This document shows, piece after piece, positions 18,590 through 21,355 of a stretch of DNA of 23,177 nt (its first letter is position 1; the number at the start of each line of letters is the position of its first letter). The notes beneath the pieces are model-generated. The model did no database searches and was not told the DNA's origin. It saw nothing but the letters and a program-made list of their open reading frames with translations. Location: IMG/VR virus record IMGVR_UViG_3300037963_001074, positions 1 through 23,177 of that record; one strand, written 5' to 3'. The stretch is from a virus. The translations under genes were made by a program, and so were the position numbers.

Positions 18590-19126
18590 TTATGCTAGTA
18601 GATCACGATCTACTTCGGTAGCTGCCACACGGCCTCGTTTCCCTGTGTCAATGCAACATGCAATAACACGTAGGATACCTTCTGTAACATCTGCAGATGA
18701 AGCAATTAATTTAACATCAATTGTATCTGTAGTTGTTACGTGGGCTGTAAATGTATCTGCTGATGCAGTATTTACAACCATGGTTTGACCGTTTGTTCCA
18801 CCTGCTAGAAAACCTGCAGATGAAACATCACCACCGTCAACAATATCATCACCTGCTGCGAAATCAATATCCACAGTTGGAGATGTACCGTTAAAAGCAG
18901 TTTCAACTTCAGCACCTGCAAACAATACTAATGTATTAGCAGGAATTTCTAGAAGCTGAAAGATATCCCCATTGGTGCAGGAATATCCGTCTTCAACCAT
19001 TTTAGCAATGTCAAGACGTGCTTCACGCATGTACATTCCCATTGCCTGATGGCGTGAGGTAGCTGCTGCAATGCTGTCAGAATCGACACCAACAGTAGCT
19101 TTTGAGGTCATGTCAAAAGTAGCCAT
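18590..19126 (-). CDS. Probable head decoration / capsid-associated protein, 178 aa
   Basis: This gene lies immediately downstream of the capsid gene (14-bp gap) with a strong GGGAGGA site before its ATG, so it should be highly made. The N-terminal half includes a helix and a SCTNGDIFQLLEIPANTLVL segment. The central and C-terminal parts are beta-rich and Thr/Val/Asp-rich, with an odd TGKRGRV stretch near the end. Size, position and beta content suit a capsid-decorating protein. I recognise this kind of protein from marine phages beside capsid genes, but no named family is certain; a head-tail joining role is a second possibility. Confidence 0.55.
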   Translation of the reverse strand: MATFDMTSKATVGVDSDSIAAATSRHQAMGMYMREARLDIAKMVEDGYSCTNGDIFQLLEIPANTLVLFAGAEVETAFNGTSPTVDIDFAAGDDIVDGGDVSSAGFLAGGTNGQTMVVNTASADTFTAHVTTTDTIDVKLIASSADVTEGILRVIACCIDTGKRGRVAATEVDRDLLA

Positions 19127-19140
19127 ATCTTAATCCTCCC

Positions 19141-20214
19141 TTACGCTGCGTTGTATTTAGCAGTTGTGATTGCTTCTGGACGAAGAATCTTCCTGCCGTA
19201 TAGGTGCATACCACGAACAATGTCAGCAAAGCTGTCAGGGTCACGATATGTTTCTGTCTTGTTGATCTGCTCCGCAGTTGCTACAGCAGAATCATGTCCA
19301 GCAACAATCACACCAAAGTTTGAGTTTTGGTTTGCTGTTCCTGATGTACCTGGACCAGTACCTACAGCAGGTAGGTTTGATGACACGTACAAACGGAAGC
19401 CGTGAAAGTTATTGATTACAAGACCATTACGAAGTCCACCAGACTCACCATAGTCTCCATTCATAAAGCGTGAATCCTCATCGGATAATAGCTCCATAAA
19501 TACAGGGTCGATAACAAGCCATCTACCTTGCGTATCAACTTGTTGCTGATCAAGCAATCGTTTCATACGTGATACAATCATCGCAGGTGAAACTGTAGCT
19601 GTTGGTAAAGATGTAGCACCTGGCATACGTGCAGTTACTGGGATTGAATGATCCCCTGCAGATGTCGTTGTAATGTTACCAAATGAACTCTTAATCAACT
19701 TCATGCTTGAAAGCAATTCATCTGAACCTGCAGTAGTTACAGCTTTTGTACCATTTACTTGGTCATTAGCTGTATCTGCTGTTGCATGTAGAGCAGATTG
19801 CTTAAAACCTGACAAATAACCAAGAACTTCTTGGTCATACTGGTCAGCTAGTCTGTAAGCTGCACGATCTGTTGCAAGATCCATGAAGTTTACGTGTGAA
19901 TGAGCTTCTTCAATATCGTCCATTTTGAACGCAAAGTAGTTAGCTTTGTCCACTACTAACTGAAAATCTTCATCGTCAAGATCTTGTGCTGTAACTGTTG
20001 TGCCACGAGCATAAGACTGAACTGAGATTTCAGGCTCTTTAATGATGCGAACTGTGTCGCCTTGTGCGGCAATTTCACCAAAATAATCTGAATTGGTGAT
20101 ATCCCCTACGGTAGCAGCCTTGCGAAATGCAAGTTGTACCTTTTTGGAATAGATTACGGGACTAAAATTACCATTAGGTAAATTACCGTAACCCGATGCG
20201 GTTTGAAAAGCCAT
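19141..20214 (-). CDS. Major capsid protein (HK97-fold, P22 coat-like)
   Basis: The 357-residue protein has the expected landmarks of phage coat proteins of the P22 gp5-like type: an N-terminal helix region ending in FRKAATVGDITNSDYFGEI (30-48), the strand-rich DTVRIIKEPEISVQSYARGT (53-72), then AQDLDDEDFQLVVDKANYFAF (76-96) and the DDIEEAHSHVNFMD segment (99-112), a long helix to about 137, and a C-terminal axial-domain-like part with RWLVIDPVFMELL, FHGFRLYVSSNLP and VRGMHLYGRKILRPEA. It forms the icosahedral shell. The consensus AGGAGG seven bases before the ATG predicts very high translation, and a dedicated promoter lies upstream. The scaffold gene precedes it, as in T7-like phages. This is the most secure call in the window. 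Confidence 0.92.
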   Translation of the reverse strand: MAFQTASGYGNLPNGNFSPVIYSKKVQLAFRKAATVGDITNSDYFGEIAAQGDTVRIIKEPEISVQSYARGTTVTAQDLDDEDFQLVVDKANYFAFKMDDIEEAHSHVNFMDLATDRAAYRLADQYDQEVLGYLSGFKQSALHATADTANDQVNGTKAVTTAGSDELLSSMKLIKSSFGNITTTSAGDHSIPVTARMPGATSLPTATVSPAMIVSRMKRLLDQQQVDTQGRWLVIDPVFMELLSDEDSRFMNGDYGESGGLRNGLVINNFHGFRLYVSSNLPAVGTGPGTSGTANQNSNFGVIVAGHDSAVATAEQINKTETYRDPDSFADIVRGMHLYGRKILRPEAITTAKYNAA

Positions 20215-20324
20215 AATTAAATCCTCCTGATATTTGGCTTGAATTAAGCTTAAACATCTAAAAGGGGCTGTACGTTTTCTAGGGTGCAGTTAGTATTAGG
20301 TTGCGCTACCGAATACCACTGGGC

Positions 20325-20420
20325 CTATACTTGTCCAGGTAGTTCTTTGTAGTTTAGACTTTTTTGTAGATTTGGGTGTGACAAAAGGTAGTCAAAAGAG
20401 GCTTTTGTCAACATGCCCAT
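20325..20420 (-). CDS. Candidate 31-codon leader ORF upstream of the capsid gene
   Basis: The frame reads MGMLTKASFDYLLSHPNLQK... and ends at TAG. It could begin at ATG 20420 or, more likely, at ATG 20414, which falls close to the predicted transcription start; there is no Shine-Dalgarno site, so translation would be leaderless. Composition looks protein-like, but an open stretch of this length is not rare by chance in such DNA. It may be a leader peptide or nothing at all. Confidence 0.2.
   Translation of the reverse strand: MGMLTKASFDYLLSHPNLQKSLNYKELPGQV
20380..20409 (-). promoter_or_regulatory. 8-bp inverted repeat in the capsid leader
   Basis: GACAAAAG (20380-20387) and CTTTTGTC (20402-20409) are perfect inverted copies 14 bases apart, just downstream of the predicted transcript start. 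An internal CTTTTGAC-like copy lies between them, so two alternative pairings are possible. No U-tract follows. It may be an operator or a 5' leader structure. Confidence 0.4.
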
Positions 20421-20421
20421 A

Positions 20422-20449
20422 GTTATACTGTTGAATTTTAATTTGTCAA
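20422..20449 (-). promoter_or_regulatory. Sigma-70-type promoter for the capsid gene
   Basis: On the minus strand TTGACA (20444-20449) and TATAAC (20422-20427) are separated by 16 bp, one mismatch to consensus in total. The -35 box begins four bases after the scaffold stop. The predicted start is near 20415, giving a leader of about 200 bases before the capsid ATG. It would let host RNA polymerase boost capsid expression over the genes before it. Confidence 0.7.
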
Positions 20450-20453
20450 CAGT
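20427..20453 (-). promoter_or_regulatory. Operator-like dyad overlapping the capsid promoter
   Basis: ACTGTTGA (20427-20434) and TCAACAGT (20446-20453) are perfect inverted copies 11 bases apart (19-bp centre-to-centre). They cover the -35 box and the -10/spacer boundary. A 10-bp direct repeat TTTGTCAACA (20404-20413 and 20442-20451, exactly 38 bp apart) places a second related sequence at the transcript start. The layout suits repressor or activator binding; an RNA hairpin is the alternative. Confidence 0.45.
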
Positions 20454-21355
20454 TATCTGGCTTTACCAGATATATCGTAAACAAACTTACCCGAACGGAT
20501 AGCTTTGTTTATATCATCAGAGTTTTCTTCAAATTCCTTATCGGACATTTTAGCAACCTCTGACTCACGAATTACATCGTTTGCATCTTCTACGTCTACT
20601 TGTGTTTTAGTACGTTTAGTTACAGTAGAAGCTGCATCTTTAGCTCTTGCTTTTTTTGCACTTTTTGTAAGACCTTTATCTACTTTATAAAGATCTATAA
20701 CACGAACTACAGAAGCTGGATCATCTGAGTTTTCATACAGTGCATCTTGTACCCACTTAGGTTGTTCATCAACCCAATTATGAAACTCATCTGATGCACG
20801 TAAGTCATCAAAGTCTTCGTGTGATTTACGTATGATACTTTCAGCCTTAGTTCTTTCAGCTTCTGTTTGAATCTTATCAAACTCCTGCATACGAGCTTCA
20901 GCTTTACTAAACATCTCTTGAGCTTTTTTAGCAGCAATAGTTTCTACTATACCTGCTACATCTGGATACTCTTTAGACCACTCTTCTATATCTTCGTCAG
21001 ACTTAGGTGGTACAATAGATTCTTTTTCTAATCGTTTTTCAAAGGCTTTGAACTTCTCGTCCCACTCCTTTTCTTTTTCTTGCATGTGGCGTCTTAGATC
21101 ACCATATCGTTTTTTAAACGATTTTTCTTCAGCAGATAGCGTTTCTTCTTTAACTTCTGTATCGGTCTCTTTCTTTTCGGAAGTTTCTTTTGGTTGCTGT
21201 TCTTCGTTGGTTGATTCTTCTCCACGTGCTTCAGCTTCAAGTTTACGAATCTCCTCTTCTTCAACTTCCATTTGCTTACGCTTCTTTTCGTAGTTGTAAC
21301 CTCTGTCAACAAATCCTGCTGTTTTTGGTGTTTCTACTTGTGCTAGTTCAGGCAT
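20453..21355 (-). CDS. Capsid scaffolding protein
   Basis: This 300-residue, highly charged protein has the features of phage scaffolds: a disordered acidic N-terminal half with Glu/Lys coiled coil (about 22-110, including YGDLRRHMQEKEKEWDEKF), a second helix (134-175), and a C-terminal conserved part. That part includes HEDFDDLRASDEFHNWVDEQ and the PKWVQDALYENSDDP stretch (179-213), then RVIDLYKVDKG, which I know from scaffolds of marine T7-like phages. The basic C-terminus (231-252) could contact the coat. It would fill the procapsid and direct coat assembly. The gene immediately precedes the capsid gene, separated only by the regulatory gap, and its ATG has AAGGAG at a spacing of six. Confidence 0.82.
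   Translation of the reverse strand: MPELAQVETPKTAGFVDRGYNYEKKRKQMEVEEEEIRKLEAEARGEESTNEEQQPKETSEKKETDTEVKEETLSAEEKSFKKRYGDLRRHMQEKEKEWDEKFKAFEKRLEKESIVPPKSDEDIEEWSKEYPDVAGIVETIAAKKAQEMFSKAEARMQEFDKIQTEAERTKAESIIRKSHEDFDDLRASDEFHNWVDEQPKWVQDALYENSDDPASVVRVIDLYKVDKGLTKSAKKARAKDAASTVTKRTKTQVDVEDANDVIRESEVAKMSDKEFEENSDDINKAIRSGKFVYDISGKAR

Follow-up and report, generated by a model that had tools for sequence, protein, structure and literature searches.

The coat gene locus and its promoter

The window (the whole stretch of DNA that was analyzed) is a viral fragment of 23,177 bases, and its genes lie on the minus strand. A P22-type coat gene is preceded by a gene of unknown function whose position is that of a scaffold gene. 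The coat protein is 72% identical to that of Puniceispirillum phage HMO-2011 and up to 79% identical to coat proteins of Roseobacter phages; the window was therefore placed among the HMO-2011-type phages of alphaproteobacteria, which are described as dominant and broadly distributed in the ocean (PMC9038755). The two genes are separated by 238 nt and the next-largest gap among the late genes is 56 nt, in agreement with the original prediction of a single large gap in a packed late operon. The following features frame this gap.

20453-21355, minus strand: upstream gene, 300 aa, scaffold-like by position (phrog_13678, unknown function)
20427-20453, no strand assigned: 8-bp dyad ACTGTTGA-N11-TCAACAGT spanning the -35 box and meeting the -10 box, lineage-specific (pattern search)
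20422-20449, minus strand: host-type promoter TTGACA-N16-TATAAC, followed by an invariant TA (sequence and conservation in relatives)
20212-20228, minus strand: Shine-Dalgarno AGGAGG and coat start codon ATG (sequence; conserved in relatives)
19141-20214, minus strand: major coat protein, P22-type, 357 aa (phrog_267, E=5.7e-63)

An ORF of 178 aa just after the coat gene (18590-19126) had no PHROG match. The slot after the coat gene varies among relatives, with a methyltransferase-annotated protein in CRP-9 and no annotated gene in CRP-1. A host prophage origin was rejected: the close matches to genome contigs at 53-83% identity are contigs within metagenome-assembled genomes (MAGs), and they look like marine phage contigs binned together with cells. 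Matches in isolate genomes were distant (mostly 28-36% identity). The Flavobacteriales MAG TMED123 and the Neomarinimicrobiota MAG MED589 both contain the same contigs of 62,825 and 55,371 bp (L452-L455), which suggests misbinning of phage contigs in both.

On the minus strand, the TAA stop of the upstream gene is followed by CTGTTGACAAATTAAAATTCAACAGTATAACTATGGG. The -35 box TTGACA (20449-20444) and the -10 box TATAAC (20427-20422) are separated by 16 nt and lie at the upstream end of the gap, as had been claimed. Compared with the E. coli consensus, the two boxes differ at one of their 12 positions, a C at -7. A scan of the window allowing at most one mismatch over both boxes gave two sites against 0.31 expected by chance, and the coat promoter was the only exact TTGACA-16-TATAAC site. 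A sigma-70 scan with an obligatory T at -7 did not list the coat promoter because of its -7C. This base is expected for the host group, since most alphaproteobacterial sigma-70 promoters lack the -7T (PMC8407463) and TATAAC fits the -10 core TANAWC of Caulobacter RpoD (PMC8144410). With a -35 TTGAC and a TANAWC-type -10 at suitable spacing, the site has the layout of an alphaproteobacterial sigma-70 promoter (PMC8144410). It shares the TTGACA -35 box, the TANAWC fit and the non-T base at -7 with promoters of Rhodobacter and Caulobacter RpoD; however, the host promoters are variable at -7, whereas -7C and the next TA are nearly invariant in the coat promoter. The predicted transcript start is near 20415.

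Relatives of the coat and scaffold genes were gathered from IMG/VR and from GenBank phages, and the gap between the same two genes (mostly 212-335 nt) was compared. The -35 box was exactly TTGACA in 81 of the 84 non-redundant gaps, the -10 box plus two bases read TATAACTA in 78, and the spacer was 16 nt long in 81, while its sequence varied. This comparison, a check proposed with the original prediction, thus shows that boxes and spacing are fixed while the spacer drifts, and this supports the proposed dedicated, host-type promoter for the capsid gene.

The dyad fared differently. The perfect repeat ACTGTTGA-N11-TCAACAGT was found exactly as described, at 20427-20453 on the plus strand, and its pattern occurs once in the window and in none of 100 dinucleotide shuffles. 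At its outer edge it takes in the final A of the upstream gene's TAA stop, and it has one base in common with the -10 box, the first of that box. The prediction was that such a dyad would allow regulated capsid expression and would be kept in relatives together with the boxes. If the dyad were an operator for a phage or host regulator gating the promoter, with the rest of the gap passive, its span over the -35 box would be well suited to that role, and within the dyad class the three free outer pairs do co-vary (CTG/CAG 25, TAG/CTA 4, CTA/TAG 4). However, at least six of seven pairs are kept in just 35 of 149 distinct exact-box promoters, the dyad was gained and lost often on the coat tree (17 changes against at least 25 in shuffles), and the strong conserved signal is carried by the leader downstream. 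We consider an operator of this kind unlikely. The dyad lies outside the common promoter design and is a lineage-specific extra that may matter in some lineages.

It had also been argued that phages with a single-subunit RNA polymerase do not usually show such an arrangement at the capsid gene. The T7-type polymerase domain (RNA_pol, PF00940) was detected in none of 17 HMO-2011-type records, nine of them whole GenBank phage genomes (the window itself is a fragment only); T7 was matched as the positive control. Because no complete relative encodes a T7-type RNA polymerase of its own, the comparison falls, and T7 in fact has its phi10 promoter at precisely the scaffold/capsid junction. A dedicated promoter between these two genes thus occurs in T7 and equally in a virus group for which no T7-type polymerase was detected. 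The likeness ends there: the T7 promoter lies 63 bp before gene 10, whereas the coat promoter is host-type, is accompanied by no phage RNA polymerase gene in the complete relatives and is followed by a long structured leader. From this comparison, the placement of a promoter at the junction seems to be convergent, not unusual. A paper on HMO-2011-type phages makes no mention of promoters or RNA polymerase.

A structured leader RNA before the coat gene

The original prediction had missed a conserved structured RNA of about 200 nt that fills the gap between the predicted transcript start and the ribosome-binding site of the coat gene. In the alignment of gaps, short motifs that do not vary are interspersed with segments whose changes come as complementary pairs. 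The full P1/P0/P2/P3 model was drawn by eye and has the following parts in the window.

20244-20411, minus strand: structured leader RNA core (covariance-model match, 146 bits, E=3.5e-28)
20380-20409, minus strand: P1 hairpin with internal loop G[CC]/[CUAC]C (helices 1-2; also in the MAFFT-only fold); outer GGG/CCC extension at 20374-20418
20352-20362, minus strand: 5' strand of the long-range helix P0, AAAGUCUAAAC (helices 3-4; its own partner beats all 20 swaps)
20336-20347, minus strand: 5' strand of P2, AAGA[ACUAC]CUG (helices 5-7)
20280-20327, minus strand: P3 hairpin, UAGG[CC]CA...UG[CAC]CCUA (helices 8-10; loop statistics), with the apical loop core GCGC at about 20303-20306
20262-20270, minus strand: 3' strand of P2, CAG[CC]CCUU, consensus CAGCCUCUU (helices 5-7; near-invariant)
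20241-20255, minus strand: 3' strand region of P0, GUUUAAGCUU...; these bases are alternatively available for P4
20229-20259, minus strand: hairpin P4, an alternative to P0 that cannot coexist with it and that ends at the ribosome-binding site (predicted by folding)

A C-rich asymmetric internal loop of one type, with CC facing YAC, recurs in P1, P2, and P3.

Covariance model R1 was built from a seed of five relatives that excluded the window. It recovered the leader of the window at the score given above and gave 91 matches in 100 loci. Over these 91 sequences, standard pairing was observed in 92.2% of pair cells and compensatory changes in 41 of 44 pairs; the covariation score was 0.449, whereas slid partners gave at most 0.069 and none of 500 shuffles reached it. 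A second, more diverse set (mostly HMO-2011-like and CRP-2-like phages) gave 0.628 against at most 0.083 in controls. These pair counts were taken from alignments fitted to the model, which inflates pairing; the low slid controls and the detection of the window by a model built without it argue against fitting as the source of the signal. With a MAFFT alignment alone, RNAalifold returned a fold of 12 pairs that includes P1, nine of them with compensatory changes. This fold was not accepted as the full structure: P1 was recovered and the rest was misplaced because hairpin lengths vary. Comparative evidence thus shows a structured leader, with compensatory changes beyond the slid and shuffled controls.

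Conservation of the gap could also reflect a small protein coded there, and the window does hold an ORF of 31 codons (MGMLTKASFDYLLSHPNLQKSLNYKELPGQV; 20324-20419, minus strand, starting at 20419). In 93 of 149 leaders, however, no ATG ORF of at least 10 codons starts in the first 100 nt, the leaders differ in length by single bases, and the pairs change in a compensatory manner. The ORF was rejected as the conserved element because most relatives lack it, and we regard a coding origin of the conservation as hardly credible.

The P3 hairpin of the window is almost identical to that of one relative (L136), while the P1 sequences of the two differ, and long GATC-type P3 hairpins occur in unrelated leaders. 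Judged from these sequences, P3 looks like a cassette exchanged by recombination.

Possible action on coat expression

We consider it rather likely that the gap holds an expression cassette for the coat gene, in which a promoter for the host RNA polymerase drives the coat gene and the folded leader of the coat transcript affects, in cis, its translation or stability. The strong promoter, right after the stop codon of the scaffold-like gene, would be read by the housekeeping RNA polymerase of an alphaproteobacterial host. We infer that transcription occurs here; with a start near 20415, a structured stretch of about 200 nt would lead the mRNA, opening with hairpin P1 and continuing into the P0-P2-P3 arm, which the long-range helix closes. 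We suggest that the leader, which ends at the coat Shine-Dalgarno, raises or tunes coat synthesis relative to the operon neighbors; an effect in cis on the translation of coat or on the stability of the message would explain the arrangement most simply. The message would be stabilized by its 5' hairpin. With P0 and P2 formed the ribosome site would stay accessible, whereas P4 would bury it; which fold prevails could depend on binding of a protein (coat or scaffold) or a small molecule, or on an RNA partner. The folded leader of about 200 bases probably controls the amount of coat protein made; alternatively, it may act as a structural or trans-acting RNA.

It is possible, though we hold this tentatively, that the leader works as a riboswitch-like or autoregulatory translational switch, in which P0 (on) competes with P4 (off), the two being mutually exclusive, and the outcome is set by binding of coat protein, scaffold protein, or a metabolite. 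The middle strand pairs better with its own than with swapped partners, for both P0 and P4, in a swap test made without kinship correction. The accessibility of the ribosome site in forced folds was 0.36 with P0 and 0.08 with P4, about a fourfold difference, and the invariant unpaired bases suggest specific binding. P4, however, showed no compensatory evidence in the fixed alignment: covariation beyond shuffles was not found there, although P4 was paired in 87% of cells, and P4 as the off state is thus a folding prediction. By thermodynamic folding P4 is the more stable, on average by 3.5 kcal/mol, and P0 would therefore have to be assisted. Because P0 covaries and P4 does not in that alignment, the switch is offered here as a hypothesis, though the partner swap favors both helices.

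The apical loop of P3 raises the question of dimers. Among 158 unique hairpins with loops of 4 or 6 nt, 132 have a self-complementary loop core (GGCC 105, GCGC 26, TGCA 1), and longer loops are often GATC or GTAC. Core positions 2-3 are complementary in 97%, against 67% expected. A loop-loop pseudoknot inside the leader was rejected, as GCGC-type loops have no complementary partner. No second copy of the core was found in GCGC-type leaders, and 14 GATC-type leaders hold only one between them; an internal partner for the P3 loop is therefore unlikely. On the strength of the palindromic core and its differing forms, the leader might dimerize through the P3 loop and be, or be processed into, a multimeric RNA, as GOLLD and ROOL. 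Against this, GGCA (14) and GGCG (6) are recurrent exceptions, and leaders with short loops lack the palindromic loop. The GGCC and GCGC cores interchange about ten times on the coat tree, but exchange of hairpins between phages could produce the same class changes. We doubt that such a multimer is formed. That the leader represents a new class of phage regulatory RNA, pairing with its own second copy through palindromic P3 loops (GGCC, GCGC, GATC, GTAC), seems to us quite improbable; if true, self-pairing would make coat translation depend on the amount of coat mRNA or on an assembly protein that bridges the dimer.

Known RNAs and range of the leader

No Rfam 15 family matched the leader of the window at gathering score, and none relevant was found for the relatives up to E 0.5. 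The DUF2800 RNA (RF02960), likewise a cis-regulatory RNA, showed a weak local resemblance (18.3 bits); however, this score is far under the gathering threshold of 60.2 (E=0.41) and the downstream gene is different. GOLLD and ROOL are also structured RNAs encoded by phages, and kissing loops are possible in both cases. They are often found near tRNA islands and are much larger, GOLLD members exceeding 800 nt (PMC12286853), whereas the leader described here has about 200 nt, lies before the coat gene and has no Rfam match. A literature search for phage capsid leader RNAs gave nothing relevant and no description of this leader. We rate it as a new structured, probably cis-regulatory leader RNA of phages, attached to an ordinary host-type promoter. 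The outcome is a precise promoter and an RNA family with a usable covariance model, absent from Rfam 15; control of capsid dosage by a structured leader becomes directly testable in cultured Roseobacter phages.

Of 21 whole genomes or records searched with R1, 14 gave a single match, always in the gap before the coat gene, and none gave a match elsewhere. A scan of IMG/VR with a P3-derived motif gave 80 matches, 73 of them directly before the coat gene; the other seven had neither the promoter nor a coat gene and look like chance. In the wider group, the Pelagibacter phages HTVC115P and HTVC033P have gaps of only 58 and 31 nt, and no leader was matched in CRP-738 by covariance model; the leader is thus not essential in every relative.

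In MW202701 (ctYwJ313; L164, positions 1700-2458), an ORF for an HNH endonuclease (1815-2384) lies between a promoter-like site (TTGACA/TATAACTA) and the leader core, an arrangement that resembles the insertion of a homing endonuclease gene into the coat leader. With model R2, an unfiltered 8-kb search gave weak matches directly upstream of the coat gene in two soil rhizobial phages (E 0.001 and 0.0035). P1- or P2/P3-like modules are visible in the rhizobial versions. In these Rhizobium and Sinorhizobium phages (L173 and L174) a reduced leader lies upstream of the coat gene, with the same CC/YAC loop modules in a different arrangement.
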